From positions 82,179-146,178 of the forward strand of contig CAJNOJ010000256.1 of the NCBI GenBank assembly GCA_905250025.1: a stretch of DNA of 64,000 bases, given 5' to 3'. This stretch comes from Adineta ricciae. Its lineage: Eukaryota > Rotifera > Eurotatoria > Adinetida > Adinetidae. The position numbers and the translations under genes are program-made. Of the stretch, positions 17,591 to 62,135 are shown piece by piece; positions within the stretch are counted from its first letter, which is position 1; the number at the start of each line of letters is the position of its first letter. The notes beneath the pieces were generated by a model. The model was not told where the DNA came from, did no database searches, and saw only the letters and a list, made by a program, of their open reading frames with translations.

Positions 17591-17599
17591 TTCAATTAG

Positions 17600-22715: not shown

Positions 22716-22824
22716 TAGAAAGAGCGATGAAAGTAGCTTACTTGTTGATCAGAAGTACTCTAACTCAATTGTTAGTAGTAGTCATTTACTCTTTCACTCG
22801 CAAAAGATTGACACTATTCATCAG

Positions 22825-23951: not shown

Positions 23952-24052
23952 TGGACAGTTCTTGAACGTGACTGCTATAGAAGCAAATATACTCGATGAT
24001 CAAACACAATGTTTATGATTCTTGTTTTATTGTTTGAATATTTTGAAAAATA

Positions 24053-27950: not shown

Positions 27951-27959
27951 TTAGCTCAA

Positions 27960-28575
27960 CAATTGATAGTCGTCGGAAATGCAGTTTCCCCTCTTTTGAT
28001 AGAAATCGACAAGAGTGATTTCGCAGAACGCTATCTTCAAGACGAGCTAAATCGCTATTGCTCAAGTCAAGAAAATCAGCCTATTGAGTGTATGGACATT
28101 TACCATTACACGAGAAGATTTATAGTACGAAATCCAATATGCTACAGCTAAGATCCTGGTTCAACAAGTACTAGACATTGCTGAAATCAATCCCCATTTA
28201 CCAATGGTTGATGCCTGTCAGAAATTCATCTCGTTCATATGTGAAAATATGAATGATACAAACATCACAAAACGAAACTCGAAGTCCTCAACATTGTGTT
28301 CGTGCTGTGACCAACAAAAAGAAATAATGATAAGAGAAATAAGCGTATGTGGAACGAGTAACGGTTGAATTATGTAATTATTTGGGTATTCAAACCACTA
28401 GCAATGCCAATTTCGCTGATTTGATCACGTATTCAATGTGTATGTATGCTTATCGATTGCACATGCTCTTTCTTGTTTTGTTAATACTGCATGTGCATGA
28501 AATCGAACATTACCGAAAAATATTTGAAAAAGGTATAAGATCTCAAATTCCTCAACAAACTAAGCGATAGAAACA
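27960..28575 (+). pseudogene. Decayed gene, allele 2
   Basis: Same relic as 17,600-18,215. Pieces are somewhat better kept here (KILVQQVLDIAEINPHLPMV, KFISFICENMNDT, CNYLGIQTTSNANFADL), but they lie in different frames with stops between them. Confidence 0.45.
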
Positions 28576-29175
28576 TCACTTTTTTCCCCATAACTACTTG
28601 AATAGGTTGCCATTTCTAGAAGATGAGGCTGGATTAATGCAAAAGAATGAAAATGCAGCAACATTTGGTTTCAAACTGATTGGATGAGACAAAAGAATCG
28701 AGCAGTATTCTGATGAAAACATTGCATTGAGGAATAGATTTAATCCACGAGAAAAACAATGATTGTGATCTTTTACGATCTGTATCGTCTTCAATTGGAG
28801 AACATGAATTTCAAAATTAACGTATACCAACAAGATTATTCATTTTCTTATTCATCTTATCATCGACGATGCTTCTCCTGTACAATTCCTTTATTATTTT
28901 TATGTAAATAGACACTTCGAAAAGCCCGACTTTCAATGAGTACTACCAACCATTCCGATTATATTCCGACGCATTCTCGTATCCATGCAAGAAAATTGCA
29001 ATTAATTATAAAAATATTCTTTGGGATTGACTATACATTGCAAGGCGTATGTTCCCTTGATCGATATATAGATTTTCGACAAACAGCTAAATTTCTCTTT
29101 TAAAGATTACACACACTTTGGGACTTGGCTAATCAAATCAATATGTTACCGCAACCATGGCATCCTTGATGCTGT
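28576..29175. other. Intergenic, allele 2
   Basis: No gene. Lacks the 70-base segment found at 18,255-18,334 of allele 1 and has an extra stretch at about 28,770-28,990. Confidence 0.45.
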
Positions 29176-39472: not shown

Positions 39473-40251
39473 GAGCAAGCAACGATCAAAACAGAATTGA
39501 AAGACTATACGAGTGTCGATGTGAATTTTAGTTTTGCATCATGATCAAAGACTAAAGCTATAAGCTGAATTTTCATATTGAAGAATAACGAAGATGTTCG
39601 ATGTAACTACTTACGAGTGTAATCGGAAAAATGATATTACGAATTATCGCACTCAAAACAAGTATTGAATTCCTTTTCGTTGAATGTTTTCAATTATAAA
39701 AAGCGTTGAAGAATTAAGTGATAGGACTACAATAAATCTGTTGAAAAGTTACGAAACAGGAAATGTCACGAAGGAAAGATTCGTGATAAAGCGTTCTCAG
39801 ATGTTATAATGAAGTGTGCATATGTCAGATATCTTCGTAAGAAAAAAATTGGTAACATTGACTCATTTCTTCCATCGTTCTCATGCAACGCAGTGTCATG
39901 TTAATCATGAAAAGTTTAGAAGTGGAAGTTGAGAGAATTGCAGCAACGACAATGACGACATTTTCGCAAGAATGTCATATAGCCGTCAATCTGGTGCTTG
40001 TTTATAGAGCTCTTTCAATAAATGAAAATGGTTTGTTCCGAGTGTCGCATTCTAAATCTTAAATAAACATAAATACATTTCTCATTTTTACCAAGGAAGA
40101 AAGATTTATAAAACACGTGAAATTCTGTGTCAGGGAGTGAATGAATCATCACAAGGAAGTTGTCAAATCATTTCCAACAACAACAGAATTCTCAGAAGTA
40201 TAAAAGCACCAAGTGAAATCGTAAAAGAAAAGGAAAAGTTTGAAATTAGTG
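39473..40251. other. Intergenic
   Basis: No gene seen. From about 40,103 onward the sequence matches 51,937 onward, which marks the start of the third haplotype-duplicated block. Confidence 0.5.
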
Positions 40252-40692
40252 ATGGCACTTTTTCAACGAAATCAAATCGGTTTTAAAGAAGAGCAACATG
40301 GTACTGTAACACCAGCCAATGATCTTGCTCGACTTATGTATTATTTTAATTGTGTATGCTATGTCATTCAATACAATGATTCTGATGTTAGTCGACTTCG
40401 AAATTGCCATAATTGGGCATCTTTATCAGCTGCAGAGATTCGTCTTCTTCTTGCTCTCTGCTCGACGCTTTCGCCTGATGTTTTTAATAACAAGGTGTTC
40501 TTTCAGTCGGATGCTTTATGTGGCAGCAGCCAAAACAAATTCTTTGAAATAAGTCAAGTTAGTAATCAGTTATTAGCTGTCGATTCCATTATCATCGCTG
40601 GTCGACGATATCGAGTGAACAAGATTATGACATATAAAATGTCTTGGATGTATAATAATTATATAAATCCAATGCAACGAATTGCACAATAA
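40252..40692 (+). CDS. Hypothetical protein, allele 1 (shortened)
   Basis: 146 codons from ATG 40,252. The protein has no signal peptide or membrane helix. It contains two cysteines in a YYFNCVCYVIQYND segment and a C-terminal stretch LLAVDSIIIAGRRYRVNKIM. I do not recognise the family. The final codon that reads CAA in the other allele is TAA here, which removes 15 residues; the missing codons are still present downstream. Strong conservation between the alleles supports a real gene. Confidence 0.55.
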   Translation: MALFQRNQIGFKEEQHGTVTPANDLARLMYYFNCVCYVIQYNDSDVSRLRNCHNWASLSAAEIRLLLALCSTLSPDVFNNKVFFQSDALCGSSQNKFFEISQVSNQLLAVDSIIIAGRRYRVNKIMTYKMSWMYNNYINPMQRIAQ

Positions 40693-40893
40693 CTGAATAC
40701 AAGAACTTCGAATTCCTCTGCATGTGTCATCTCGTAAGAATAAACAAATAAACTATTTAGCATGTTTTACATTCAATTGTAATGAGCAAACAAAATAGGA
40801 ATCACAATTTTTGAAATAATATTCGTTTCAATGAACGTATATTCATTTTTCTCATAATTAAGCTACGAAGGAAAAAAACAATAAAACGAAGAT

Positions 40894-41961
40894 TCATAGT
40901 TCCGTTCGATCTTGATCATCTTTCGTGTATGGGATGTAGAGCTCAGCACTACTTTGAAGTTTATTTCCATAACCACCAGTGACTAATACTCTACCATTGT
41001 TTAATACAGATATTGTGTGTCCATCACGTGCGTAATTTAAATTGTTAGTCAATGTCCATGTCTCTGTTAATGGATCGTATAACTCGGCAGTGTTCATCGG
41101 TGTAGCGTTGTTTGCTTGCCCACCAATGACTAAAACTTGTCCGTTAGCTAAAAGGCATGCTCCTGGGAACATGCGCGCTTCATTTAAATCACCAGCCGTA
41201 GTCCAATGACCCGTCGATGGATCGTACAATTCAGAGGTGTACAGCAATTCATGCTCATCATCCGATCCGCCGATAATCAAAACTTTTCCGTCGGTTAATA
41301 CAGCTGCTGTATGGTAAGTTCGTGGATAATTTAAATTACCAGAAGGAGTCCACATGTTCGTTGATGGATCATATAATTCAGTAACGATAACATATTCACC
41401 AGCAGCATTACTTCCTCCAACGATCAACACTTTTCCATTATTCAATACAGAAGCTGTATGCCAGTTCCGTGCATGATTCATTGGAGTAGTAACAGTCCAA
41501 CTACCCGTGGATGGATCGTACAATTCAGCAGTGTTTAGAAGTGTACCTCCTCCAACTATTCCACCAGTCACCAAAACTCTACCATCGTTTAACACGACTG
41601 CTGTATGCATTCGTCGCGGATACTTCACATCGGCACCTGCCGTCCATTTCCCTGTCGACGGATCATATAATTCAGTGCTATTCGAATCACCGCTACCAGC
41701 GACTACTAAAACTTTTCCATTGTTTAATACAGATGCTGTATGCAAGTTTCGTGCGTAAATCATGTTTCCAGTGGCTGACCATTTGCTTGTTGATGGATTG
41801 TATAATTCAGCAGTTGCAGGTCCATCGCCTTCGCCACCAACTACTAAGACCTTTCCACTGGGTAACTTCAGTGCTGTATGAAACGCTCGTACGTGTTTCA
41901 TACTACCGATCTTTATCCATCCTGAAGAGAAGTTATACCGAGTTAATATAGGCTGTTCCAT
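40894..41961 (-). CDS. Seven-repeat kelch protein, allele 1
   Basis: 355 codons without an intron. Seven repeats of about 48 residues, each with ARxxHTA, a VLNNGKVLVVGG strand and an ELYDPSTGKW turn, which would close one beta-propeller filling the whole protein. No BTB or F-box partner domain is present. Lack of introns and the repeat wording are more like bacterial kelch/galactose-oxidase-like proteins than animal kelch proteins, so transfer from bacteria is possible. Compared with allele 2 an extra base near the start shifts the frame upstream of the ATG at 41,961, so the first 27 residues or so differ. Confidence 0.75.
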   Translation of the reverse strand: MEQPILTRYNFSSGWIKIGSMKHVRAFHTALKLPSGKVLVVGGEGDGPATAELYNPSTSKWSATGNMIYARNLHTASVLNNGKVLVVAGSGDSNSTELYDPSTGKWTAGADVKYPRRMHTAVVLNDGRVLVTGGIVGGGTLLNTAELYDPSTGSWTVTTPMNHARNWHTASVLNNGKVLIVGGSNAAGEYVIVTELYDPSTNMWTPSGNLNYPRTYHTAAVLTDGKVLIIGGSDDEHELLYTSELYDPSTGHWTTAGDLNEARMFPGACLLANGQVLVIGGQANNATPMNTAELYDPLTETWTLTNNLNYARDGHTISVLNNGRVLVTGGYGNKLQSSAELYIPYTKDDQDRTEL

Positions 41962-42596
41962 TATTATTTAATCTATTACTTACTATTGGTCTGTGAAGTA
42001 TTACATAGTATCTGGTCAATGACAAAATAAAAAATGCTTATATAAATATTGATTTGCATACTCTGATTTGACTGCTGTATTCACTTTGCAAAGAAGAATC
42101 ACTTTTGAAAGGCTCGATCGATAATGTTCTTTTACCAAATGAAAATCACCTGTGATTGTTCTCATCGTTCTTTCTTTTATTATATCTTCATTCTATTCAT
42201 ACAGATATACAGTAAAACTTATGAATATCCAGAATAAAAATATAATCCTTTTTTTCTCTTTGGAAAAATTGTTACTGAGTGTACTTTATAATCGATGGTT
42301 CGATGATACTCTCGTATTAGATCCGAATATGTTCTTCTACTTGAATTAGCTAATATTAGTTTAACTGTCGGCTAAATATCATCTGATTAGTATTGACTAG
42401 AAAACCACCTTGCACTTTATCTTCATTTGTAGTTACTTCGCATTGTTGCAACCGATTCATGGAATAGAAAGGAACTGTTGTGAGGTTTTTATGAGATTTA
42501 TTTGAGAAATAATAACTGGTATGTCGCATAGAAATTGTGTTACATCTTTTAAATAAAGTCGCTTTAATTTCTTGGAAATTCTCTGCGCCGTAATAC
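41962..42596. other. Intergenic
   Basis: Between two leftward genes; closely matches 53,856-54,426. No gene seen. Confidence 0.45.
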
Positions 42597-45500
42597 TCAT
42601 AGATACGGGCTGTCGAAATGAAGCTGTTGTTGCTTATGTAGTTTCAACGTAATCATGTTTTTTCTGTATAGCTCGGCAGTTGATCTTGAGAAAATTGAAT
42701 CTCGTACCCTTTTCTCAGGCTTTTTTATGTCAAAGAGTGAATCATCATCATCATTGGTTTCAACCTCTCTGGTGAATCTGGTAAATTCATAGTAATCGGA
42801 ATCATAATAAGTTTTAAGACGTTCGTAATCATTTTCCGGAAACACTTCAAGTTGCACTCGGACACTAACTATTACACTAGTTGGATCTGTACCAGAGTCT
42901 GTTCGAATCAATTTGACACAGCCGTTGCTTACATTTTGTTGTCGCAGGGTTGTCCAAAGGATTGGGATTTCTTCATTCAAATAATGGCACGTGCGGTATC
43001 TTTCATCTACTTCCTGTTCAGTGCTAAAGTGACTTTCAATGGCCTTCATGCTAATTGGTTTAACGTCCCAAAGAAGATGCTGTAGTTCATTTTTCAGATA
43101 TGATAACACACACTTTTTATAATACAGATTGGCTTCCTCCGATCTTTCACATAGCTTGGCTATATCGTAGTAAGACAGAGCAATCATGTTATTATATGTG
43201 CTTGCATTGTGTTCATTGTGTGATCGCACCTCGACTTCATTCCAGCAGAGTTTTGTCTGAGATATGCGTAGCTGGAGAAAATTTATTTGCCACAACTCAC
43301 TGTCGATGTTGCACACCTCAATTTTGGGTATTGCAAGTTCCATATCACGTGATTGTAGATTATGTTCGTCCTTCAATAACATCTCGACAAATCTTTTGTG
43401 CCATTCTATAGCTAAAGGAACTTTTTCGCCTCCTTGCTTTGCGTATAATAAAGCAATATGTCGCGGTGTGATGAGGTAATTGTGTGACATAAGTTGCGAG
43501 AACATCATACCAGTCTCAAACGCTTTCTCAAACCATTCTATTGTCGAATTCAGATCGCCTTTTTCTTCATATAAACAACCGATCTTTTTATACAAGAAAG
43601 GTACATTACTGTAATGATATTGCTTCTTCTGAGTAATACATTTGCCGGATTTCGATTCAATTTCTATAAGCTTCTTCAAACAATCAATGGCAAAATCGTA
43701 GTTTTTGCGCGAAACAGCCAGCTCGACGATATGCACGTATGAATAGACAATAAACCCATATAGTGATGGTAGATATTGTATGGCATAGTCAAGAAAGCGT
43801 TTACGATTTTCTATAGTATCATTATAAGCTTTCACAATATATTCAAACACCATTTTATGCAATTTAGTGTTTGGAATTTTCTCAATCGTTCTCTGATACA
43901 TGTCCCATGTTAAGTCAAACTTTTGTTGCAGTTTATAAATTGCAGCCATATGAATTGAGCTAATATTTCGAAATTCATCAAGATTAATCCATTGACGATC
44001 AATACATCTTATGTTATTATACTGCTCTGCTTTCATATAAAAATCTATTGCTTGATTGTAATTATTTCGCTTTCGGTTAACTGCTCCAAGACAATTGTAT
44101 ATATTCAGTAGAAGATCAGTCAATGATAGTCGTGCTCGGTCGTATAGTTGCAATGCTGTTGTCTGGTATCTCAATGCTAGGTCATACTGATCATTTTCAC
44201 ACGCAATCCAACCTAAGCCAACGTAACAAGCACAGATGTTTTGATCATCTCCATGAAAATCATTTAGTAAGCTGTTATAATATTTCGCGGCATGAGATTC
44301 GTGTAAATATGACCTTTGTATTAAGTAGCCAATGTTTATGAATTTTGACTCGATTGAGATTGCTGACGGAAGTTGAGGATTAGGGTATGTTAAATCTTTA
44401 TAACTAATCAAGGAGAACTTGAATATATGTAAATTTTGTTGTTCGTCGTATTGGGTTGCAGTTAGGAGTAACATAGACCCGATCATAAACAAAACTTCGT
44501 CTTCGTTGGAACCAAAATAACTCAAGTGGCCAATATATGCAAATGGTTTTTGTGATAAACGGGCATCTGCTTCTATTTCAAACAAGACTGAAATATAGCC
44601 ATCGCTACGTGGTGTTGCCGAACCGGTGATACCAGAAAAGATTAGCGCAGTTGACCGATTTGTAGTCGTCGACAGAAGACTATTTATAGAATATGTAAAA
44701 CCAGCGAATTTTTCAAGATAAATCACTTCTTCACGTGTCATCAATTGACCGCGATAAGCTTTCAATATAGGTCTATCATCGAAATATTCTAAATATTCTT
44801 CCTGCACTGATCTCAATTGTTTGCAAATATCCAATAGATAGAAGCGAAAGTAAAGCGCTGCTTCCATATTTTTCTGTCTTAAGACTCCGTTCAGAATACG
44901 GTATAAAAAGCAATTTCGCGTGTACCACCAAATAGCTTTAGCAGGATCATAAGTCTTCTCAAATTCATCGATAATTTCTTCAGTCATGGTATTACCTTTA
45001 TAATACATCTTGCACTTATCGATTAATGTTTGTCTATCGTTATTACTAATCGGTAACGAAAGTGCAATATCAATCGATCGCTGGTACCACATTTCATTGA
45101 CACCAATATACGATGTTGTAGTGCCACCTGTCGAACATTCAAAGAGCATATTTGCATACTTGGTCAACGTTGCTACTTTTTCACCCAATTCGCTTAACAA
45201 TTTTTGCAGCTGCACGTATACGCCACATACCTGCATACGAGGAAACATTCGGTGTCATTCAAACTGACAGAAACGTCTTATCACTTGAGAAAAATCTCCT
45301 ACCTTAGGATAATCCATGTCCATTGCACATTCGTTATTCTCATCGGTCAGATACACATACACTGCATGTACGGGTTTGAGTTGTTGAACAGATATAAGAA
45401 AATGTTGTATCTGATCTCTTTTATTATAATTTGATGAAATAATAACGAATACTTTGGCTTGATGTGTACTTCTGAGATAGTCGTTGCATTCGTCTGCGTG

Positions 45501-45632
45501 ATTAAAAAATTTAAAATAATCAATTATCGCACGCATTCTTATTTCAAGTTCATTATCGACAATGTTTTCTGTATCAAACCATATCAGTGCCAGTTGTTCC
45601 AAGTTTTTACTTCGATCGAACGCATCATCCAT
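42597..45632 (-). CDS. Arginine-type ADP-ribosyltransferase with TPR repeats, allele 1
   Basis: Two exons (45,632-45,303 and 45,230-42,597) joined in phase over a 72-base intron give 987 residues. Residues 1-110 are an N-terminal domain (LALIWFDTENIVDNELEIR, HAVYVYLTDENN), also seen in the gene at 1-3,053. The transferase domain has Arg270 in AYRG, Ser297 in SLLSTT and E353-D354-E355 in SNEDEVLF, the full R-S-E set, so activity is expected. About ten TPR units follow (for example YDLALRYQTTALQLYDRARL, DFAIDCLKKLIEIESKSGK). Both alleles are fully open, which argues for selection. Confidence 0.88.
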
Positions 45633-46221
45633 ATTTTTCTGAAATAACGAATTGATACATATGTGTTTACACCGAATGCTGCGAAGCGACCTTCACCAAA
45701 AAATGAAGTTGTTTTTTTTTGTGTTACGTGTAACAGTGGCAAGTTATAAATTTTCATCGTTCTGAATCATTTAAACGAAACGAGAAAGAACGTTCTCATA
45801 TATTAGTCATCTGTCAGCATGTGTAAGTTTCTTTAGTGCAGAATGACGATTCAAATGAATATTGAAAATTTCATTATCTTTCGTACGACTTGCATCATGA
45901 TATGAATCAGTATAGTAAATCAAATCCTATTCATTCTGCGACAGTTAATCTTGCTTGTGCACCAAGTAATCGTTTCACATGTATTCATGGCTATTATTTT
46001 GAACTTTGATTTCAATTGCAATGGGTGAATTCAACGAAATCATGTCTCACTTTTATATGAAATATTTACAGAATTCATTCTCTAATTTTACTGTACGAAT
46101 GAGGTATTATGAATAGTATCAATCGTATCTAGCTAAATGACCTTTTTCAATTAGATATATCTTAAAAAACATTTTAGAAATGTGAATGTGGATGTCTCTT
46201 CTCCTCCATGCTTTCAAAAAT
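45633..46221. other. Intergenic
   Basis: Upstream of the ART-TPR gene; no gene seen. Conserved at 57,463-57,951. Confidence 0.45.
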
Positions 46222-48874: not shown

Positions 48875-50271
48875 TTTTCTACAGCTTAATAACAATCATT
48901 GAAGGACAGTGAATGCTTGAAACGAAGAGAGATTACAATAGAACTATATTAATTTTTTCACAGAATGAAACAAATCAAACAATGTTGACCGGGAATAAAT
49001 CCATAAAACAACAAGATCACTATTCACTATGTAAACGTATGTGTGACGGTTACTATCGTACACAATCGAAATAGCTGTTGTGATCAGAAACTAAACTTGC
49101 TGACTTTTTCTGTCGTGGCAACAGAACATTAAAAATTCTGTTTTTACTCACAGTACAGAGCTTTTTCCCCTATAGTGGACGGTTTGATTTTCGTCTTGCG
49201 CCAGTCGTGCTGTACATATACGTTGAAACAATCACAATCTTACATTATTCAGATGAAATTAAAGTATAAGCATGGGAAACAAGAAATCTCTGCAAAAAAT
49301 TTGAATTGTTTTCATATTTGTTCTCTTGGTAACTGTTCAGCAATGTTTCTTGTTTCTAGAACTTCAACGATTGCAACGTCGCACTAAGTTCTCAGAAAAC
49401 AGTATGTATTCGACATTGTTCGTAGGTTGATTAATACTTTCTTTCTTATTCCATTAGAAATTCGACAATGGCATACCGTAAATGACATAATATCCTTCAA
49501 GAAGTAGTTTTTAGAATTTTCTTCAGGGTTTTTTCCACGACTGAGAAGGCGAAGAACTTACAAGAGAAAAATTCATTTCAATATTCAAGAAATTCTACAT
49601 ACCAAATATAATAAAAGTGCAAGCTTTTTGCGAGTAAAATCATCTATACGACAACGGAAGATGTATCTTTGCTTGTTAAAGTTATGTATTCGGAGCTTTC
49701 GATAAGGATTCCTAGTAGTAATCGACTTTTCCAATCAACGCGACACAGAAAGTCGATTGAATTTGATTTTTGACATGTAAGTCCAATTTGAATTTATTTG
49801 ATTTTCTTTTCTTCAAATTGTGCACTTTCCCAAGATGAAATGCCTCATAGATGCTGGCGAAATCGATGCGAATGAATTGGAGAAAGTAACACCGCACATA
49901 TGTCAAGAAAAAGGGAAGTGATCAAATGAGTATGAAGTGCGGACATGATAAAAAGGAGAAAAACACATCAATGTATTCATTAATGAGTAATAACTGAAAA
50001 AAAAACTGAAATACGTAAACATAAGCAGAAAAGGCGATGGGCGTACGTGTTTAACATGGTCTGTACATCGTGTTGTAATTTGGTAATTTCCTTTTTTTCT
50101 CCGTTTCGAGCTCAATAGAAGCGCATAAGTATATTAAAATGTGATCAATATTCACAATAAAATATCATATTTTTTCGTCTAATCGAAAGGTGAGGCTACC
50201 TATTTATTTACGGTATATACACTGTGCTTTTTTCATCTTATTCTCATCGAATGTGTACTGCAGACAGATCG
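48875..50271. other. Intergenic
   Basis: No secure gene. A conserved short plus-strand frame (49,247-49,390; KQEISAKNLNC) recurs at 58,170-58,310 and might be an exon, but no partner exon was found. Confidence 0.4.
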
Positions 50272-50515
50272 ATGAGGCTCCTGTCAAGGTATCCATGGTT
50301 ATGTTTTTACTTTCTCTTGCTTCGACAGAATGTCCATGGACTTTGGCCCTCTTCAAACTCTTCGGCAGTTCAACTGTTAGGTATTGCACAAAGGGAACTC
50401 AATATAAAAAATACTAGTTCATCATCGTTTTATCAAACTCAAGCACTGTTTTACTCAGCGATGTTACTCGCTCAGCAATACAATATCACTGTCGGAGGAG
50501 AATATCTCGGTTGGA
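50272..50515 (+). pseudogene. Ionotropic glutamate receptor, truncated allele
   Basis: Matches the first 80 or so codons of the receptor at 59,184 (signal peptide YPWLCFYFLLLRQNVHG, then QQYNITVGGEYLGW). Identity stops abruptly at 50,515, where an unrelated C-rich sequence begins, and the contig ends at 50,811. The frame runs to a stop at 50,584 in foreign sequence. Either an insertion broke this allele or the contig end is chimeric. Confidence 0.7.
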
Positions 50516-50811
50516 AATTACAGCAATGTCCAAGGTACCATACTTTAGGAATTCCTACAGTTCCTAAAAAATACAGCAAAAACTAATCAATTCCTTACAG
50601 AACTGGGAACTCACCCTCATTTCCTACACAGTTCCCTATCAATTCCATCCTCCATTCCTAACACATTACTTTATTTCTCACACACCACCTCAATACCTAT
50701 CCACAGTCACTACTACGATTCCCAAGTTCCTAACCAAGGAACTGATGCCACGACAATACCTACAAAAGGAATTGAGGAAATCAGTAGAACTGACCGACAT
50801 TTCCCTAACAG
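50516..50811. other. C-rich, G-poor sequence of unknown origin
   Basis: About 296 bases in which TTCCTA/TCCTAC-like words recur and G is rare on this strand, unlike everything nearby. No coding frame beyond 40 codons, and no match elsewhere in the window. It could be the edge of a mobile element, a satellite or a misassembled end. Confidence 0.5.
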
Positions 50812-51418: not shown

Positions 51419-51935
51419 ATGAGTTTAGGCAAGAGCCGGTATGCATGGATCGATTACGCAAAAGGTTTATGTATTATACTGGTAACCTTCAGGCATGTGC
51501 AGGAGGGCCTTCATCCTGCAGGAACCGATTACCCCTATCCTGCACTTAAATTTGCTGATGTTTTTTTCTTCAGCTTTCGTATGCCTTTGTTCTTTATAGT
51601 ATCGGGTATATTTCTTGGTGGTACTCTCCGTAAAAAAAGTGTAAATGATTATATCACCGGCAGGTTCAGGACACTGGTATGGCCCCTTTTATTATGGGGA
51701 TGCATACAGGTAACCCTCCAACTGGTATTTAAAAACTATGTAAACGTTGACAGGCAGCCAATAGATTATCTCAAACTGATTATCGAACCAAGAGCAATCG
51801 AACAATTCTGGTACCTGCATACCCTCTTCCTCACAGGAAGTTTTTATGCACTGATGAAGGTTAAGGCAAAGTTCACCATGCTTCACCAGATATTGCTTGG
51901 CATACTACTATATACAATAACAGGTATTTTCAGAT
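51419..51935 (+). CDS. Bacterial acyltransferase 3 family protein, truncated
   Basis: From ATG 51,419 the protein reads YAWIDYAKGLCIILVTFRH, then PLFFIVSGIFLGG, RTLVWPLLLWGC and FWYLHTLFL: the N-terminal half of an acyltransferase 3 membrane enzyme (O-acetylation of sugars or similar), with the family's conserved Arg-His in FRH. The usual length is 330-400 residues. Here bacterial sequence stops after about 170 and runs without a gap into rotifer sequence near 51,935, so the apparent frame to 52,117 is chimeric. It sits after the sorting-domain gene in the same direction, as in a bacterial genome. Confidence 0.75.
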
Positions 51936-52082
51936 ATTATAAAACACATGATATTCTGCGTCATGGAATGAATGAATCATCACAAGGAAGTTGTCAAATA
52001 ATTTCCAACAACAACAGGATTCTCAGAAGTATAAAAGCACCGAGCGAAATCGTAAAAGAAAAGAAAAAGTTTGAAATTAGTG

Positions 52083-52568
52083 ATGGCATTGTTTCAACGA
52101 AATCAAATCGGTTTTAAAGAAGAGCAACATGGTACTGTAACACCAGCCAATGATCTTGCTCGACTGATGTATTATTTTAATTGTGTATGCTATGTCATTC
52201 AATACAATGATTCTGATGTTAGTCGACTTCGAAATTGCCATAATTGGGCATCTTTATCGGCTGCAGAGATTCGTCTTCTTCTTGCTCTCTGCTCGACGCT
52301 TTCGCCTGATGTGTTTAACAACAAGGTGTTCTTTCAGTCGGATGCTTTATGTGGCAGCAACCAAAACAAATTCTTTGAAATAAGTCAAGTTAGTAATCAG
52401 TTATTAGCTGTCGATTCCATTATCATCGCTGGTCGACGATATCGAGTAAATAAGATTATGACATATAGAATGTCTTGGATGTATAATAATTATATAAATC
52501 CAATGCAACGAATTGCACAACAACTAAATACAAGAACTTCGAATTCCTCTGCATGTGTGATCTCGTGA
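52083..52568 (+). CDS. Hypothetical protein, allele 2 (full length)
   Basis: Same protein as 40,252-40,692 but with CAA in place of the TAA, so it continues through QLNTRTSNSSACVIS (161 residues). Other differences are few (Ser/Asn, Lys/Arg). This is probably the intact form. Family unknown. Confidence 0.6.
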   Translation: MALFQRNQIGFKEEQHGTVTPANDLARLMYYFNCVCYVIQYNDSDVSRLRNCHNWASLSAAEIRLLLALCSTLSPDVFNNKVFFQSDALCGSNQNKFFEISQVSNQLLAVDSIIIAGRRYRVNKIMTYRMSWMYNNYINPMQRIAQQLNTRTSNSSACVIS

Positions 52569-52724
52569 GAATGAACAGATAAACTGTTTTGTATATTTTG
52601 CATCCTCTTGTAATGATCGAACAAAATAAGAATCATAATAATTGAAATACCATTCATTTCAATAAACATATATTGATCTTTCTCATAATTAAGCTACGAA
52701 GGAAAAAAACAATAAAACGAAGAT

Positions 52725-53855
52725 TCATAGTTCCGTTCGATCTTGATCATCTTTCGTGTGTGGGATGTAGAGCTCAGCACTACTTTGCAGTTTATTTCCA
52801 TAACCACCAGTGACTAATACTCTACCGTTATTTAATACAGATATTGTGTGTCCATCACGTGCGTGATTTAACTTGCTAGTCAATGTCCATGTACCTGTCG
52901 ATGGATCGTATAATTCGGCAGTGTTCATCGGTGTAGCGTTGTTTGCCTGCCCACCAATGACCAGAACTTGTCCGTTAGCTAAAAGACATGCTCCTGGGAA
53001 CATGCGTGCTTCATTTAAATCACCAGTCGTAGTCCAATGACCCGTCGATGGATCATACAATTCAGAGGTATGCAGCAATCCATGCTCATCGTCTGATCCG
53101 CCGATAATCAAAACTTTTCCATCGGTTAATACAACTGCTGTGTGGTAAGTTCGTGGATAATTTAAGTTGTCAGCAGGAGTCCACGTGTTTGATGATGGAT
53201 CATATAATTCAGTAATGACAACATATTCACCAGCAGCATTACTTCCTCCAACGATCAACACCTTTCCGTCATTCAATACGGAAGCTGTATGCCAGTTCCG
53301 TGCTTGATTCATTGGACTAGTAACAGTCCATCTACCCGTGGATGGATCGTACAATTCAGCAGTGTTTAGAAGTGTACCTCCTCCAACTATTCCACCAGTC
53401 ACCAAAACTCTACCATCGTTTAACACGACTGCTGTATGCATTCGTCGAGGATATTTCACACCGGCACCTGCGGTCCATTTCCCCGTCGACGGATCGTATA
53501 ATTCAGTGCTATTCGAATCACCACTACCAGCGACTACTAAAACTTTTCCATTGTTTAACACAGATGCTGTATGCAAATTTCGTGCGTAAATCATGTTTCC
53601 AGTGGCTGACCATTTGCCTGTTGATGGATTGTATAATTCAGCAGCTGCAGGTCCATCGCCTTCGCCACCAACTACTAAGATCTTTCCATTGGGCAACTTC
53701 AGTGCTGTATGAAACGCTCGTACATGTTTCATACTACCGATATTTATCCATCCTAAAAAGAAGTTATACCCAATTAGTAGAAACTGTTCATTATCATTTG
53801 ATTTATTAGTTACTATTGGTCTGTGAAGTATTACATAGTATTTGTTCGATGACAA
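52725..53855 (-). CDS. Seven-repeat kelch protein, allele 2
   Basis: 376 codons, no intron. Same seven repeats as allele 1, with an N-terminal extension (YYVILHRPIVTNKSNDNEQF) kept open here and frameshifted in allele 1. Repeat consensus ARxxHTA / GKVLVVGG / ELYDPSTGxW. No signal peptide or added domain, so a cytoplasmic protein-binding propeller is likely. Confidence 0.75.
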   Translation of the reverse strand: MSSNKYYVILHRPIVTNKSNDNEQFLLIGYNFFLGWINIGSMKHVRAFHTALKLPNGKILVVGGEGDGPAAAELYNPSTGKWSATGNMIYARNLHTASVLNNGKVLVVAGSGDSNSTELYDPSTGKWTAGAGVKYPRRMHTAVVLNDGRVLVTGGIVGGGTLLNTAELYDPSTGRWTVTSPMNQARNWHTASVLNDGKVLIVGGSNAAGEYVVITELYDPSSNTWTPADNLNYPRTYHTAVVLTDGKVLIIGGSDDEHGLLHTSELYDPSTGHWTTTGDLNEARMFPGACLLANGQVLVIGGQANNATPMNTAELYDPSTGTWTLTSKLNHARDGHTISVLNNGRVLVTGGYGNKLQSSAELYIPHTKDDQDRTEL

Positions 53856-54426
53856 TATAAAAAATACTTATATAAATATTGATTTGCATACTCTGATTTG
53901 ACTGCTGTATTCACTTTGCAAAGAAGAATCACTTTTGAAAGGGTCGATCGATAATGTTCTTTTACCAAATGAAAATCACCTGTGATTGTTCTCATCGTTC
54001 TTTCTTTTATTATATCTTCATTCTATTCATACAGATATACGGTAAAACTTATGAATATCCAGAATAAAAATGTAATCCTTTTTTTCTCTTTGGAAAAATT
54101 GTTACTGAGTGTACTTTATAACCGATGATTCGATGATACTCTCGTATTAGATCCGAATATGTTCTTCTACTTGAATTAGCTGATATTAGTTTAACTCTCG
54201 GCTAAATATCATCTGATTAATATTGACTAGAAAACCACCTTGCACTTTATCTTCATTTGTAGTTACTTCGCATCGTTGCAGCCGATTCGTGGAATAGAAA
54301 GGAACAGTGGTGGGGTTTTTAGGAGATTTATTTGAGAACTAATAACTGGTATGCCGCATAGAAATTGTGTTAAATATTTTAAATAAAGTCGTTTTAATTT
54401 CTTAGAAATTCTCTGCGGCGTAATAC
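53856..54426. other. Intergenic, allele 2 of 41,962-42,596
   Basis: Nearly the same sequence as allele 1; no gene seen. Confidence 0.45.
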
Positions 54427-57400
54427 TCATAGATACGGGTTGTCGAAACGAAGCTGTTGTTGCTTATGTAGTTTCAACGTAATCATGTTTTTTCTGTATA
54501 GCTCAGCAGTTGATCTTGAGAAAATTGAATCTCGTACCCTTTGCTCAGGCTTTTTTATGTCGAAGAGTGAATCATCATCATCATTGGTTTCAACCTCTCG
54601 GAAGAATCCATTCATACTATGGTAGTCAGAGTCATAATAATTTTTCAGACGTTCGTAATCATTTTCTGGAAACACTTCAAGTTGCACTCGGACACTAACT
54701 ATTACACTAGTCGGATCCGTGCCAGAATCTGTTCGAATCAATTTGATACAACCGTTGCTTACATTTTGTTGTCGTAAGGTTGTCCAAAGGATTGGTATTT
54801 CTTCATTCAAATAATGGCACGTGCGGTATCTTTCATCTACTTCCTGTTCAGTACTAAAATGACTTTCAATAGCCTTTATGCTAATTGGTTTAACGTCCCG
54901 AAGAAGATGCTGTAGTTCATTCTTCAGATATGATAAGACACACTTTTTATAATACAGATTGGCTTCCTCCGATCTTTCACATAGCTTGGCTATATCATAG
55001 TAAGACAAAGCAATCATGTTATTATATGTGCTTGCATCGTCTTCATGGTGTGATCGCACTTCGACTTCATTCCAGCAGAGTTTCGTCTCAGATATGCGTA
55101 GCTGGAGAAAATTTATTTGCCACAATTCACTGTCGATATCACACACTTCGATTTGGGGTAGTGCAAGTTCCATAGCACATGATTGAAGATTATGTTTGTC
55201 CTTCAATAACATCTCGATGAATCTTTTCTGCCATTCTATAGCTAAAGTAACTTTTTCGCCTCCTTGCTTTGCGTATAATAAAGCGATATGTCGCGGTGTG
55301 ATGAGGTAATTGTGTGAAATAAGTTGCGAGAACATCATACCAGTCTCAAACGCTTTCTCAAACCATTCTATTGTCGAATTCAGATCGCCTTTTTCTTCAT
55401 ATAAACAACCGATCTTTTTATACAAGAAAGGTACGTTAGTGTAATGATATTGCTTCTTATGTGTAGCACTTTTGCCGGATTTCGATTCAATTTCTAGAAG
55501 CTTCTTCAAACAATCAATGGCAAAATCGTAGTCTTTACGCGAAACAGCCAGCTCGACGATATGCACGTATGAATAGACAATAAATTCATATAATGATGGT
55601 AGATATTGTATGGTATAGTCAAGAAAGCGTTTTCGATTTTCTATAGAATCATTATAAGCTTTCACAATATATTCAAACACCATTTTATGCAATTTAGCGT
55701 TCGGAATTTTCTCAATCGTTTTCAGATACATGTTCCATGTTAAGTCAAATCTTTGTTGTAGCTTATAAATCGCCGCCATATGAATTGAACTAACATTTCG
55801 AAATTCATCAAGATTGATCCATTGACGATCAATACATTGTACGTTATTGTATTGCTCTGCTTTAATGTAAAAATCCATTGCCTGTTCGTAATTATTCTCT
55901 TTCCGATTAATTGCTCCAAGACAATTGTATATATTCAGTAGAAGATCAGTCGACGACAGTCGCGCTTGGTCGTATAGTTGCAATGCTGTTGTTTGATATT
56001 TCAAAGCTAGGTCATACTTATCATTTTCACATGCAATCCAACCCAAGCCAATGTAACAAGCACAGGTGTTTTGACTATCTCCAAGGAAATCATTTAGTAA
56101 GCTGTTATAGTATTTCGCAGCATGAGATTCGTGTAAATATGATCTTTGTATTAAATAGCCAATGTTTATGAATTTTGACTCGATTGAGATTGCTGATGGA
56201 AGTTGAGGATTAGGGTATGTTAAATCTTTATAACTAATCAAGGAGAATTTGAATATATGTAAATTTTGTTGTTCGTCGTATTGGGTTGCCGTTAAGAGTA
56301 ACATGGCGCCTATCATAAACAAAACTTCGTCTTCGTTGGAACCAAAATAGCTCAAGTGACCAATATATGCAAATGGTTTTTGTAATAAACGGGTATCGGC
56401 TTCTATTTCAAACAAGACTGAAATATAGCCATCGCTACGTGGTGTTGCCGAGCCGGTGATACCAGAAAATATTAGCGCAGTTGACCGATTAGTAGTCGTC
56501 GACAGAAGACTATTTATAGAATATGTAAAACCGGCGAATTTTTCAAGATAAATCACTTCTTCACGTGTCATCAATTGACCGCGATAAGTTTTCAATAGAG
56601 GCCTATCATCGAAATATTCTAAGTATTCCTCCTGCACTGATTTTAATTGTTTGCAAATATCCAATAGATAGAAGCGAAAGTAAAGTGCTGCTTCCATATT
56701 TTTCTGTCTTAAGACTCCGTTCAGAATACGGTATAAAAAGCAATTTCGCGTGTACCACCAAATAGCTTTGTCTGGATCATAAGTCTTCTCAAATTCGTCG
56801 ATAATTTCTTCAGTCATGGTATTACCTTTATAATACATTCTGCACTTATCGATTAATGTTTGTCGATCGTTATTACTAATTGGTAGTGAAAGTGCAATAT
56901 CAATTGACCGTTGGTACCACATTTCATTGATACCAATATAAGATGTTGTAGTGCCGCCTGTCGAGCATTCAAAGAGCATATTTGCATACTTGGTCAACGT
57001 TGCTACTTTTTCACCCAATTCGCTTACCAATTTTTGCAGCTCCATGTATACGCCACATACCTGCACACAAGGAAACATTCGACGTCATCGAGATTGACAG
57101 AACAGTCGCATCACTTGAGAAAAATGTCTTACCTTAGGGTAATCCATGTCCATTTCACGTTCGTTATTCTCATCGGTTAGATACACATACACTGCATGTA
57201 CGTGTTTGAATTGATGAACAGTTGTAAGAAAATGTCGTATCTGATCTATTTTGTTATAATTTGATGAAATAATAATGAATAATTTGGCTTGATGGGTACT
57301 TCTGAGATAGTCGTAGCATTCGTCTGCGTGATTAAAAAATTTAAAATAATCAATTATTGCACGCATTCTTATTTCAAGTTCATTATCGACAATGTTTTCT

Positions 57401-57462
57401 GTGTCGAACCATACCAGTGCCAGTTGTTCCAAGTTTTTACTTCGATCGAACGCATCATCCAT
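54427..57462 (-). CDS. Arginine-type ADP-ribosyltransferase with TPR repeats, allele 2
   Basis: Exons 57,462-57,133 and 57,060-54,427 give 987 residues, exactly the length of allele 1, with the intron in the same place and of the same length. The R-S-E residues (TYRG, SLLSTT, SNEDEVLF) and all TPR units are kept. Substitutions are spread through the protein, many conservative, some in the last 60 residues (YEFTRF against HSMNGF). No indel separates the two over nearly 3 kb of coding sequence. Confidence 0.88.
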
Positions 57463-57951
57463 ATTTTTCTGAAATAACGAATTGATACATATGTGTTTAC
57501 ACGGAATGCTGTGAAGCGAGCGACCTTCACCTAAAAATGAAGTTGTTTTTTTTGTGTTACGTGTAACAGTGGCAAGTTATAAAATTTCATCTTTCTGAAT
57601 CATTTCAACGAATCGAGAAAGAACGTTCTCATATATTAGTCATCTGTCAGCGTGTGTAAGTTTCTTTAGTGCAGAATGACAATTCAAGTGAATATTGAAA
57701 ATTGTATTCTCTTTCGTAAGACTTGCATCATGATATGAGTCAGTATACTAAATCAAATCTTATTCATTCCGCGACAGTTAATCTTGCTTGTGCACCAAGT
57801 AATCGTTTCACATGTATTCATGGGTGTTATTTTGAACTTTGATTTCGATCGCCATCGGTGAATTCAATAAAAGCATGTCTCACTTTTATATGAAATATTT
57901 ACAGAATTCATTCTCCAACTTTACTGTACAAATGAGGTGTTATGAATAGTA
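57463..57951. other. Intergenic, allele 2
   Basis: Corresponds to 45,633-46,221; no gene seen. Confidence 0.45.
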
Positions 57952-58137
57952 TCAATGAATAGTAGAAATGTGAACGTGGATGTCTCCTCTCTTCCACGCC
58001 TTCGAAAATTCAAACAGTCGAACCATTCTCTTTCGTAGGACCGATCGAATAAATAATGGAAGAACGCATTTTTCTAACATTTTCACATCTAGTTTCAACA
58101 TAAATCGTCCAATGTCTTTCAGACCAAAACGTTGAAG
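57952..58137 (-). pseudogene. 3' remnant of the F-box gene
   Basis: Only the last 185 bases of the F-box gene at 46,222-47,250 remain, including its stop codon. They join directly to sequence matching 49,218 onward. A deletion of about 2.87 kb removed the rest and the neighbouring membrane pseudogene. Confidence 0.8.
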
Positions 58138-59183
58138 TATACGTTGAAACAATCACAATCTTACATTATTCAGATGAAATTAAAGCATAAGCATGGAAAA
58201 CAAGAAATCTCTGCAAAAGATTTGAATTGTTTCATGTTTGTTCTCTTGGTAACTGTTCAGCGATGTTTCTTGTTTCTAGAACTTCAACAATTGCAATGTC
58301 GCACTAAGTTCTCAGAAAACAGTATGTATTCGACATTGTTCGTAGGTTGATTAACACTTTCTTTCTTATTCCGTTAGAAATTCGACAATGGCATATCGTA
58401 AATGACATAATATTCTTCAGTAAGTAGTTTTTAGAATTCTCTTCAGGGCTTTTTCCATGACTGCGAAGGCGAGGAACTTACAAGAGAAAAATTCATTTCA
58501 ATATCCAAGAAATCCTACACACCAAATATAATAAAAGTGCAAGCTTTTTGCGAGTAAAATCATCTATACGACAACGGAAGATGTATCTTTGCTTGCTAAA
58601 GTTGTGTATTCGGAACTTTCGATAAGGATTCCTACTAGTAATCGACTTTTCCAATCAACACGACGCAGAAAGTCGATTGAATTTGATTTTTGACATGTAA
58701 GTTCAATTTGAATTTATTTGATTTTCTTTTCTTCAAATTGTGCAGTTTCCCAAGATGAATTGCCTCATAGATACAGACGAAGCCGATGAAAATAAATTGG
58801 AGAAAGTAACACCACACATATGTCAAGAAAAAGGGAAGTGATCGAATCAGTTTAAAGTACGAACATGATAAAAAAGAATGAAAGTCATCAGTGCGTGTAT
58901 TACTGAGTAATAGGTGGAAAAATCTGAAATAAACATAAGCAGAAAAGTCGATGAGGAGTACATATTAGATATGGCTTGCACACCGTGTTATACGTTGGAA
59001 ATTTCCTTTTTTTCTCCGTTTCGAGCTCAATAGAAGCGCATATGTATAAAATGTGATCAATATTCACAGCAAAATTTCATATTTTTTCGTCCAACTAAAA
59101 GGTGAGGCTACCTGTTTATTTACAGTATATACACTGTACTTTTTTCATCTCACTCTCGTCGAGTGTGTACTACAGACAGATCG
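58138..59183. other. Intergenic, upstream of the glutamate receptor
   Basis: Matches 49,218-50,271. No secure gene. A promoter for the receptor must lie here, but no clear TATA box is seen. Confidence 0.4.
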
Positions 59184-61844
59184 ATGAGGCGCCTATCAAG
59201 GTATCCATGGTTATGTTTTTACTTCCTCTTGTTCGGACAGAATGTCCGTGGACTTTGGCCCTCTTCAAACTCTTCGGCAGTTCAACTGCTAGGTATTGCA
59301 GAAAGGGAACTCAATATAGAAAATTCTAGTTCATCATCGTTTTATCAAACTCGTGCACTGTTTTACTCGGCGATGTTACTCGCTCAGCAATACAATATCA
59401 CTGTTGGAGGAGAATATCTCGGTTGGAACTTAATAGAAACAACTGGCGATCCCATCATTGCTCTTCGGGCTACATGTGAAACAATATCGACTTCCAACAC
59501 TGTTGGCATTGTTGGACCAGCTGTCTCAAGAGAAGCTCATGTTATTGCACCTTTTGGTGCAAGTATCAATATTCCAACAATATCCTATAGTGCAACTAAT
59601 CCTGAACTATCTGACCGAATAGCTAATCCAACTTTTTACCGCACAGTTCCATCGGACAATGATGCAGCAGTGACTATCGCTAATCTTTTTCTTGAATTCA
59701 ATTGGACAATGTGTCTAATTATTTATCAAAATGATGAATTTGGAACCGGAGGTGCTAAAGCAATTTCCGACGCATTTGTCGATAGTAACGTAACCGTCAC
59801 AGAAACGATGATCTTTGATTTAAATACGTTGTCTATTCGCGGTGACTTAAAAAGTACATTAACCGGCAGTTTAGCCAGAATTGTAATTGTATGGGCTGAT
59901 ACAAGTTACGCAACGCTAATCCTGCAAAGTGCTCTCAAAGCAGATGTAGTGGGTCCACTTTTTACATGGATATTAGGCTCTGATGTTCCGCTGACAGCTT
60001 TTGACGAAATTTGGTACGATCGTCTAATCGGAGTGCTTACAATTGGCCCCGTCGTCGGAAATTTAGCTAATGCACCTGTCAACCAAACATTGTTGAATGA
60101 TGCACTTGGCATTTGGCAGAAGTATGAACCTGAATCATTTCCTGGTACAGCGAATGTCGATTATTATGCGTTGTTTGCATTCGATGCAACATGGACGTTG
60201 ATTCAATCATTTGCACAATTGTGTCCCAATAGCACTGTATCGTCATGCATTACATTTACGAATACGTCGTTTTGTTTCGATCGACGTGTTCTGAATATCC
60301 ATTCGATATTTGATATCATCAACACAAATACTTTTCTGGGTGTTACAGGCCCTGTTCAATTTTCGACAAACAAGACGGACCGGGTCAATGGCACCTATTA
60401 TATTGTGAAAAATGTGCAACGTGTTTCAAGTACTCTAAAGTATGTTCCAGTTCTAATATCCACAAACTCAGCTGCATGGACGCCGCAAGCACAAGCGAAT
60501 GTAATCATTTGGCCTGGTCACTCACTAGCTGTACCGACAGGCTATGCATCGCTTCAAGGTGTCACGTTACATATTGCCATTATACTCACAGCGCCATTTA
60601 CTATGATGAAAGAATACGTAGATCAAAATGGAATAATACAGAGGAGACTCACTGGATATATTCCAGATTTGATTGACCACTTGCAACAAAAAATGGGATT
60701 CGTTCCAAATATTACAGTGCTGCCAGAAAACATCACATATAATAGTTTACCCGATCTAGTCGCAAGTAATGTTTATGATCTAGTGGTGGGCGATGTCACA
60801 ATTATGGCGTCGCGAAGAACAAAAGCGGCCTTTTCTGATTCAATCTTCGATAATTCATTACGTATTATGACTCGACAAAAGACCGAAGAAGAAGTTCATC
60901 GATTTGGTTTCCTTCGTACATTTGAACTACGCTTATGGATGGTTATTCTCGGTTGTCTTGCAGGGTCTGCTTGTCTATTTTTCTTATACGAAGGACGTGT
61001 GCATACAGATTTAAGAAATAGATCAATTCTCTCTCGTATAGGAATGAGTATTTGGCTTGCTTTTGGAACACTTATTGGATATGGCGCTGATTTTCATACA
61101 AGTTCAGCTCCTGGACGAGTTTTAACCATTGGGATATACATTACAAGTCTGGTCCTGATCAGTGCATACCAAGCATATCTCACCGCGAGTATAACTGTTT
61201 CCATAGCGCAAAGTTCTTTCTCTGGCATTGATGATATTAAAAATGGAAAAGTCGCATACAATAGAATAGGTATTATCAGTGGCTCATCCATTGAAGATTA
61301 CTTCCTTCGAGAAATATCTGATGGCAGTCGTACTTATTACGTACTAAGAGACAAACAGGATATGCTCGATAAATTATTAAGTGGAATAATAGATGTCTCA
61401 ATCATGGATACGGGTTTTGCCGAATTCGTTACAAATTCTATGTATTGTAATTTGACCATTATTGGTGCGGGTTTTGATCAAAGTGAATTCGGGATCATTT
61501 ATCCCACGAAATGGCTGTATGAACAAGCTTTAGACGTGACGATATTATCACTGCGTGAATCAGGAGTGTTCGACGATCTGAAAAGTAAATGGTTTCAAAC
61601 AAATAATTGTACAAGTTCGTCAACGGACACACCTATGAAGTTAACACTTGGAGCGCTAGCTGGCTTATTCATTGTCTTTGCAGTAGTTAGCGCACTTTCA
61701 ATGCTGATGTTTCTATGGGTGAAACGCCGAGCACTACTTAGATATGTACGGCGACGTCGATCAAGAAATGCCATTGCTCTCAATCCTGCATATCGTCCAT
61801 ATGCTCAGCATCTACCCTATATTGCTGGATATCACCAGGTTTGA
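59184..61844 (+). CDS. Ionotropic glutamate receptor with potassium-channel-type filter
   Basis: 886 residues from ATG 59,184, no intron. Signal peptide (WLCFYFLLFGQNVRG). Amino-terminal LIVBP-like domain to about residue 430 (GIVGPAVSREAHVIAPFGAS, FNWTMCLIIYQNDEFG). Ligand-binding S1 from about 460 with GYIPDLIDHL and an Arg in ASRRTKAAFSDS. M1 is LWMVILGCLAGSACLFF. The pore loop reads WLAFGTLIGYGADF, with TLIGYG at about 629-634, like the TVGYG of K+ channels and unlike the usual Q/R/N site. M3 ends SAYQAYLTASI in place of SYTANLAAF. S2 has SGSSIEDYF and MDTGFAEF. M4 is GLFIVFAVVSALSMLMFLW, then an Arg-rich tail. Known relative: AvGluR1 of Adineta vaga. Expected to pass K+ when agonist binds. 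Confidence 0.9.
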   Translation: MRRLSRYPWLCFYFLLFGQNVRGLWPSSNSSAVQLLGIAERELNIENSSSSSFYQTRALFYSAMLLAQQYNITVGGEYLGWNLIETTGDPIIALRATCETISTSNTVGIVGPAVSREAHVIAPFGASINIPTISYSATNPELSDRIANPTFYRTVPSDNDAAVTIANLFLEFNWTMCLIIYQNDEFGTGGAKAISDAFVDSNVTVTETMIFDLNTLSIRGDLKSTLTGSLARIVIVWADTSYATLILQSALKADVVGPLFTWILGSDVPLTAFDEIWYDRLIGVLTIGPVVGNLANAPVNQTLLNDALGIWQKYEPESFPGTANVDYYALFAFDATWTLIQSFAQLCPNSTVSSCITFTNTSFCFDRRVLNIHSIFDIINTNTFLGVTGPVQFSTNKTDRVNGTYYIVKNVQRVSSTLKYVPVLISTNSAAWTPQAQANVIIWPGHSLAVPTGYASLQGVTLHIAIILTAPFTMMKEYVDQNGIIQRRLTGYIPDLIDHLQQKMGFVPNITVLPENITYNSLPDLVASNVYDLVVGDVTIMASRRTKAAFSDSIFDNSLRIMTRQKTEEEVHRFGFLRTFELRLWMVILGCLAGSACLFFLYEGRVHTDLRNRSILSRIGMSIWLAFGTLIGYGADFHTSSAPGRVLTIGIYITSLVLISAYQAYLTASITVSIAQSSFSGIDDIKNGKVAYNRIGIISGSSIEDYFLREISDGSRTYYVLRDKQDMLDKLLSGIIDVSIMDTGFAEFVTNSMYCNLTIIGAGFDQSEFGIIYPTKWLYEQALDVTILSLRESGVFDDLKSKWFQTNNCTSSSTDTPMKLTLGALAGLFIVFAVVSALSMLMFLWVKRRALLRYVRRRRSRNAIALNPAYRPYAQHLPYIAGYHQV

Positions 61845-62063
61845 AAACAGAAGTAACTGACTTTCTGAAGATAGTGTTAAACTGTTCATTGTATGAATTT
61901 ATTAATAAATGATCATTCTGCAATTCTATTATTTCCTACTTTAAATATTTGTAATTGCAACGATGAGGTAATACGTATATTGAGAAAAGCACGATATGTT
62001 TTAAGTATTTCCTGTATGTTATGAAATTTCGCTCGTTAGCGTGCGAGGGAAAAAGAATATTGG

Positions 62064-62135
62064 TGGAGGCAGTGGGAATCGAACTCACGACCTATCGCAC
62101 GCACTTCGATCGCTCTACCACTGAGCTACACCCCC
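62064..62135 (-). tRNA. tRNA-Ala(TGC)-like gene with unusual features
   Basis: The minus strand folds as a 72-base cloverleaf. The acceptor pairs 7 of 7 with G-T allowed, including G3-T70, the alanine identity pair. The D arm is GCTC/GAGC and the T loop is TTCGATT. The A box (TAGCTCAGTGG) and B box (AGTTCGATTCC) are good, and a T5 terminator lies 9 bases past the end. The anticodon by position is TGC (Ala). Oddities: base 33 is G instead of T, one mismatch at the base of the anticodon loop, one in the T stem, and CCA is encoded after A73 (62,063-62,061), which nuclear genes normally lack. Functional status uncertain. Confidence 0.65.

Follow-up and report, generated by a model that had tools for sequence, protein, structure and literature searches.

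The stretch of DNA described here, referred to below as the window, comprises 64,000 nucleotides of the genome of the bdelloid rotifer Adineta ricciae (NCBI GenBank assembly GCA_905250025.1) and forms the last 64 kb of contig CAJNOJ010000256.1 (C256; positions 82179-146178). It contains a gene for an ionotropic glutamate receptor whose pore loop carries the triplet GYG, the last three letters of the K+ channel filter signature (Table 1). The open reading frame (ORF) call begins with the ATG at 59184 and runs for 886 codons to a stop codon at 61842-61844; the start chosen by the ORF program is an in-frame GTG at 59163, 7 codons upstream of this ATG. The coding frame is single and uninterrupted, in line with the intronless gene of a preliminary description of the window made from the sequence alone.

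Table 1. Features of the receptor gene and its detached fragment, in positions of the window.
Feature	Position	Strand	Basis
Ionotropic glutamate receptor gene (bdelloid), 886 aa plus stop	59184..61844	+	ORF, Pfam domains, relatives, conserved frame
Amino-terminal domain (ANF_receptor), residues 77-408	59412..60407	+	Pfam PF01094, E 1.8e-35
Ligand-binding domain S1, residues 461-566, with invariant R544	60564..60881	+	Pfam PF10613 (Lig_chan-Glu_bd)
M1 helix, residues 582-603	60927..60992	+	AlphaFold2 secondary structure
Pore helix, residues 615-631, with W624	61026..61076	+	AlphaFold2; W in 183/190 relatives
GYG, residues 632-634, at the Q/R/N, +1 and +2 positions	61077..61085	+	Gap-free GluK1/GluA4 alignment; W-to-G count
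D636, acidic '+4' position of glutamate receptors	61089..61091	+	D in 154/190, E in 21/190 relatives
M3 helix, residues 642-675	61107..61208	+	AlphaFold2
SAYQAYLTA, replacing the SYTANLAA gate motif	61161..61187	+	Alignment
Ligand-binding domain S2, residues 679-809, with D737 and C755/C809	61218..61610	+	HMMER alignment to AvGluR1 ligand-binding domain 4io2
M4 helix, residues 826-864	61659..61775	+	AlphaFold2
Detached sister-copy fragment, 87% identical to residues 1-85	50272..50526	+	Sequence comparison

The encoded protein exhibits the amino-terminal domain, the split ligand-binding domain (LBD) and the M1-P-M3-M4 plan of eukaryotic ionotropic glutamate receptors, as judged from Pfam and an AlphaFold2 model; the Lig_chan domain of Pfam spans residues 582-834, and the eukaryotic-type amino-terminal and ligand domains named in the preliminary description are confirmed by Pfam. 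For comparison, we used 190 relatives, which are the distinct proteins from two protein searches (the best 120 of 269 and the best 120 of 364 matches). R544 and the S2 cysteine pair C755/C809 are kept in all 190 of them, D737 in 186; as in GluA2, R544 and D737 presumably bind the α-amino acid.

In the model (mean pLDDT, the predicted local confidence score, 85.3), the GYG lies between M1 and M3, directly after the pore helix, and the HMMER alignment to the GluK1 loop is ungapped, so that its assignment to the pore loop holds. At the same site, the relatives have GYG in 149 cases, GFG in 19 and other triplets in 22 (e.g. GPG, GKS, ACA, GAG, GHG and KRG). The ratio of replacement to silent substitution rates (dN/dS) is 0.235-0.259 against four copies from the same genome, two of them about 85% and two about 62% identical, and 0.27-0.36 within M1-M3; the gene is under purifying selection. 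Since the site is conserved in the relatives and dN/dS is low, a chance GYG or a frame error is ruled out. The departure of M3 from SYTANLAAF was likewise seen correctly: the alignment sets SAYQAYLTA against SSYTANLAA in GluK1 and GluA4. Within the family, the three commonest forms, which together account for 132 of the 190 relatives, are of the type A-x-YTANLAS, and the replacement of T by Q and of N by Y is therefore a further departure of the subclade of the window protein.

The gene is a paralogue in the large, already known bdelloid AvGluR1 family. Organism names among the listed relatives are all bdelloid (Adineta, Rotaria, Didymodactylos), with many rows nameless. AvGluR1 itself is represented by the Adineta vaga protein P0129 (loop GTIVGYGAD), the LBD halves of which are 99% and 100% identical to PDB entry 4io2. 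The window protein matches 4io2 with an E-value of 2.9e-78 (HMMER) and falls into one clade with P0129 (support 92/88). The preliminary description had left the choice between an orthologue of AvGluR1 and a further paralogue, and it is the paralogue that stands: in a ranking of the 190 by LBD similarity to AvGluR1, the window protein comes 147th, the nearest A. ricciae relative of AvGluR1 among those listed is P0133, and the tree described below joins AvGluR1 with P0133 (100/100) and the window protein with P0002 and P0004, apart from P0129 and P0133. The orthologue was rejected on this ranking and this tree.

We also searched the genome of A. ricciae itself (130.5 Mb, 1033 contigs). It yields at least 54 matches to the window protein, 24 of which are stop-free single frames covering at least 800 query residues; P0004, also from A. 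ricciae, is 62% identical to the window protein, and two copies of about 62% identity lie on the same contig (C256:4171-6747 and C256:12788-15430). Canonical AMPA/kainate- and NMDA-like receptors are present as well, and their loops include LWFSIGTLMQQG, LFFALAAFMQQGVD, LFFSFAAFMHQGVD and LFFSFASFMRQSIN; most of the canonical genes that were read are broken by stops or foreign stretches, which we take to be introns. Apart from these, five divergent sister copies (L070-L072, L074 and L075; contigs C12, C291, C178 and C63 of this genome, G000) are 28-39% identical and have loops such as TMLGRDR, NLFRTN and SVFSVNTD, without GYG. Four divergent copies group beside the GYG family in the tree, with weak support (86/46).

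The register of the triplet, as read from the aligned loops, is the new point of this analysis. HMMER places the window loop GTLIGYGAD over the GluK1 loop GALMQQGSE without gaps. Counted from the pore-helix Trp as position 1, the first and last G of the GYG are at positions 9 and 11 and the acid is at 13; in GluK1 and GluA4, position 9 is the Q/R/N site, position 11 a G and position 13 an E or D, and because these positions are shared, the animal and window loops align without relative gaps. At position 9, the canonical receptors encoded in this genome carry Q, H or R, some of them with Phe in place of the Trp. By this count, the first G stands at position 9 in every one of the 190 bdelloid relatives and at position 11 in every one of the 122 GluR0-type bacterial rows; four MAFFT multiple-alignment settings returned the same register throughout. 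The bacterial rows comprise 119 of 120 listed proteins (of 565 matches; the LBD-only chain P0222 was dropped) and three loci, and they are alike by choice, as they were picked as the nearest relatives of one GluR0 orthologue; the exceptions, L178 and L181, were obtained by screening cyanobacterial genomes with Pfam (16 loci submitted, 14 genomes searched, 8 with a match).

The preliminary description had taken TLIGYGAD for the K+ selectivity signature. Only the last three letters of the signature stand: none of the 190 bdelloid relatives has TxxTxGYG at the filter, the string of this kind in P0053 falling within the LBD, as opposed to 121 of 122 GluR0-type rows, in which both TxxTVGYG and GYGD are found. 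By the Trp count, T629 corresponds to the first Thr of TxxTxGYG, while the second is missing; a Thr at residue 630, two positions ahead of the GYG, is present in just one of the 190 relatives. TLIGYG was therefore rejected as a K+ signature. Under this register, G632, Y633 and G634 would correspond to the Thr, Val and first Gly of TVGYG in KcsA. In the literature, a passage of PMC6385376 gives the K+ channel filter signature as TXXTVGYG, and the legend of Figure 4 in PMC3483616 boxes TXVGYG jointly in KcsA, GluR0 and AvGluR1; this boxed alignment is motif-led. The abstracts and passages that made up the literature searched contain no mention of a register shift, and it may have been published before.

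The predicted pore structures agree with this count. In the AlphaFold2 model of the window protein, the pore helix ends at W+7 (residue 631) and the GYG starts at W+8; the pore helix modelled for a GluR0 orthologue (190-206, with W199) also ends at W+7 (206), with its GYG starting at W+10, two residues later. The spacing of K+ channels and GluR0-type receptors, with the GYG two residues beyond the end of the pore helix, is thus not what the model predicts for the window protein. The Pfam profile of the K+ channel pore, Ion_trans_2 (PF07885), scored above its cut-off in the two GluR0-type proteins scanned; it gave no match up to E 1 in the window protein and none in P0002 or P0104.

The origin of the filter was addressed with a tree of 42 rows and 397 columns, covering the S1-pore-S2-M4 region with the filter columns removed. 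It includes 24 of the 190 relatives (15 with GYG or GFG, 9 without) and four divergent own-genome copies, together with five GluR0-type and four of five group 2 bacterial rows, a plant row, an NMDA row and three AMPA/kainate rows; L177, which nearly duplicates L175, and L180, which is a different kind of K+ channel, were omitted. Eukaryotic receptors, bdelloids included, are set apart from both bacterial groups (100/97), and the bdelloid family forms one clade with the divergent copies (100/99). The window protein consequently belongs inside the eukaryotic receptors, and a clade uniting the bdelloids with the GYG bacteria has a p-AU of 0.037 in the approximately unbiased test. A clade of bdelloids and plant is not rejected (p-AU 0.405), and the position of the bdelloids among eukaryotic receptors is left undecided by the tree. 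That non-GYG bacteria fall between GYG bacteria and eukaryotes in the rooted tree is an outcome of the chosen root. Since the rooted order depends on this choice, our argument rests on root-free counts of changes. Over 29 rows, leaving aside the non-GYG bdelloids and the divergent copies, two origins of the GYG state amount to 2 changes, while a single origin implies that it was lost in the plant, in the remaining animal receptors and in group 2 bacteria; over all 42 rows, the minimum is 8 changes, with the non-GYG bdelloids counting as losses or gains. The loops of group 2 bacteria, which a passage of PMC2950845 describes as the group closer to eukaryotic receptors, lack GYG (ATLATQAEEMPK). 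As two origins need fewer changes and no insertions or deletions, retention would cost more losses plus such indels. A direct link to prokaryotic K+-type receptors, on which the preliminary description took the gene to bear, is therefore not borne out, and the retention of a bacterial filter in rotifer receptors is disfavoured; a GYG in the animal register is likelier to have re-evolved in rotifers than to have been inherited from bacteria.

Within the A. ricciae genome, the filter varies further. Thirty-one readings were obtained from 30 scanned loci (L001 and 29 of 40; the divergent copies were read separately): GYG 19, GHG 3, GFG 2, GNG 2, GYN 2 and GFD 1, the latter from a stop-containing copy; the remaining 2 lack the pore stretch. 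Two paralogues, L060 (G000:C79:182266-184713, minus strand) and L061 (G000:C96:340734-343232, minus strand), have no pore helix and no filter. They share 96.3% DNA identity with each other and are 46% and 45% identical to the window protein. Both keep the amino-terminal and ligand-binding domains and the ligand arginine; the S2 cysteine pair is lost. Between the two, dN/dS is 0.20 in the amino-terminal domain and S1, 1.42 in M1-M3 (4 silent, 17 replacement changes) and 0.74 in S2-M4. Judging from these sequences, they are pore-less receptors, possibly kept as amino-acid binders.

Taken together, we lean towards reading the gene as a full-length AvGluR1-family paralogue in which the GYG arose anew at the animal Q/R/N site, and which encodes an amino-acid-gated, K+-permeable channel with a partial preference for K+. 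The ancestral bdelloid copy would have had an animal-type loop, like the QQG loops in the same genome, and would have reached G-T-x-x-GYG-x-D by substitutions without indels. Four subunits would assemble into a receptor, in which an amino acid closes the LBD clamshell via R544 and D737 and thereby pulls the M3 gate open, and ions may then cross a ring of backbone carbonyls from G632-Y633-G634. With these residues at the positions of Thr-Val-Gly in the TVGYG of K+ channels, the pore probably falls short of a complete four-site K+ filter; with the Thr ring and part of the filter absent, it would favour K+ only partly. The window protein is likely an amino-acid-gated K+-permeable channel with only a partial preference for K+ over Na+, and its opening would shift the cell to a more K+-weighted, more negative potential than that of an ordinary glutamate receptor. 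AvGluR1 is, according to passages in PMC12226733, activated by glutamate, alanine, methionine, cysteine and phenylalanine, with chloride as a co-activator for the hydrophobic amino acids, and the M3 of the window protein would be gated by an amino acid in the same manner; a passage of PMC3483616 reports AvGluR1 to be Na+-permeable despite its GYG motif. A broader scenario, which we advance tentatively, is that bdelloids reinvented GYG in an animal pore, two residues off-register and K+-weighted, spread it over dozens of copies and retuned some of these to GFG, GHG, GNG or GYN, with one pair becoming pore-less; AvGluR1 would then represent convergence.

Several observations weigh against a newly arisen filter of this kind. 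The pairwise alignment of the window protein with GluR0 puts GYG on GYG, given gaps of two residues and one residue. Both AlphaFold2 models are monomers, with a pLDDT of about 75 at residues 631-640 of the window protein. Ion_trans_2 matches below the cut-off of 22.5 bits occur in five of eight bdelloid proteins scanned (P0033, 20.4; P0050, 18.9; AvGluR1, 18.4; P0004, 13.2; P0074, 11.1). In the tree, the root on GluR0-type bacteria was our own choice, animals and bdelloids form a clade with a support of only 90/69, plants and animals without bdelloids are not rejected as a clade (p-AU 0.387), and the rejection of bdelloids with GYG bacteria at p-AU 0.037 is weak. Finally, passages of PMC12226733, which differ in this from the report of Na+ permeability, attribute to A. 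vaga GluR1 a selectivity for K+ over Na+ and a closer phylogenetic kinship with bacterial receptors; for the S1-pore-S2-M4 region, this bacterial affinity is not supported by the present tree.

The gapped alignment and the sub-threshold Ion_trans_2 matches, along with the three filter letters shared with GluR0 and a passage in a review that presents AvGluR1 as a presumed intermediate (PMC12332018), speak for a missing link: the GYG would have been retained from a GluR0-like bacterial receptor and lost in other eukaryotes, its offset arising later from a deletion of two residues in the pore helix and an insertion of one after the GYG. This appears unlikely to us, given the two compensating indels, the need for group 2 bacteria, plants and the rest of the animal receptors to have lost GYG as opposed to two gains, the p-AU value above, the gap-free fit to animal loops and the pore helices that end alike in both models. 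Acquisition of the whole gene family by bdelloids through horizontal transfer from a non-animal eukaryote, in an already intron-free state, seems rather improbable: the printed names among the listed relatives are all bdelloid, many rows being nameless, and no donor is seen; the plant row sits on a long branch (1.67), and the window loop resembles the animal QQG loops more than the plant loop STMFFSHRE.

Other alternatives concern the function of the filter. The protein might be an ordinary non-selective cation channel in which the GYG plays no role in selectivity. This accords with the Na+ permeability of AvGluR1 (PMC3483616, in the passage cited above), with the GHG, GNG, GYN and GFG paralogues among the 31 readings and with the 22 of 190 relatives that have neither GYG nor GFG; as the triplet varies among paralogues and relatives, GYG is not indispensable. 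We nevertheless doubt this explanation, since GYG or GFG is kept in 168 of the 190 relatives, even if these rows are related and do not represent 168 independent cases. That the gene is a decaying copy without channel function is very improbable: fragments and broken copies do exist in the genome, but this copy has an intact frame, both ligand anchors, the Cys pair and a dN/dS of 0.235-0.259 (0.27-0.36 in M1-M3).

AvGluR1 has been invoked as an intermediate that stands between the K+-selective glutamate receptors of bacteria and the cation-selective ones of animals. If the register shift is true, this argument is deprived of its main support, and the family would instead be a natural experiment on GYG outside the geometry of K+ channels, with the natural variants GFG, GHG, GNG and GYN ready in one genome.

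The surroundings of the gene are rich in duplications. A 1.3 kb repeat of 91% identity (49217-50520 and 58138-59432) takes in the 5' end of the receptor gene, and its upstream member is the orphan fragment of residues 1-85 listed in Table 1. A direct duplication of 6 kb (40102-46123 and 51932-57956; 93.5% identical) holds two tetratricopeptide repeat (TPR) proteins of 883 aa, both on the minus strand (42597-45248 and 54427-57078), and another direct segmental duplication, about 7.6 kb long (10683-18264 and 20960-28613), consists of four pieces with 92-94% identity. Just downstream of the receptor gene, there is a tRNA-Ala gene (TGC) on the minus strand (62061-62135).

Among known systems, plant GLR3.4 (PDB 7lzh) is the best full-length sequence match among solved structures and tops the VIA list, the rows of which are dominated by the amino-terminal domain and have little bearing on the pore; its loop, STMFFSHRE, has no GYG. 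AvGluR1 shares the domain layout, R544, D737, the Cys pair and, with GTIVGYGAD as against GTLIGYGAD, a closely similar loop, but its LBD halves are only 43% and 63% identical to those of the window protein, and its M3 reads VASYTANLAS instead of ISAYQAYLTA. GluR0 of Synechocystis, which we read through its relatives L179/P0191, has the GYG in the pore loop and the amino-acid-binding S1-pore-S2 plan in common with the window protein, whereas its GYG lies two residues further from the pore-helix Trp within a TTVGYGD signature, and the protein, at 396 aa, possesses neither an amino-terminal domain nor M4. Lastly, the animal AMPA/kainate receptors, including the QQG receptors of A. ricciae itself, share the gap-free loop, the acidic +4 position, M4 and the amino-terminal domain, and differ in their QQG (or HQG, RQS) at the Q/R/N site, their introns and their SYTANLAA-type M3.
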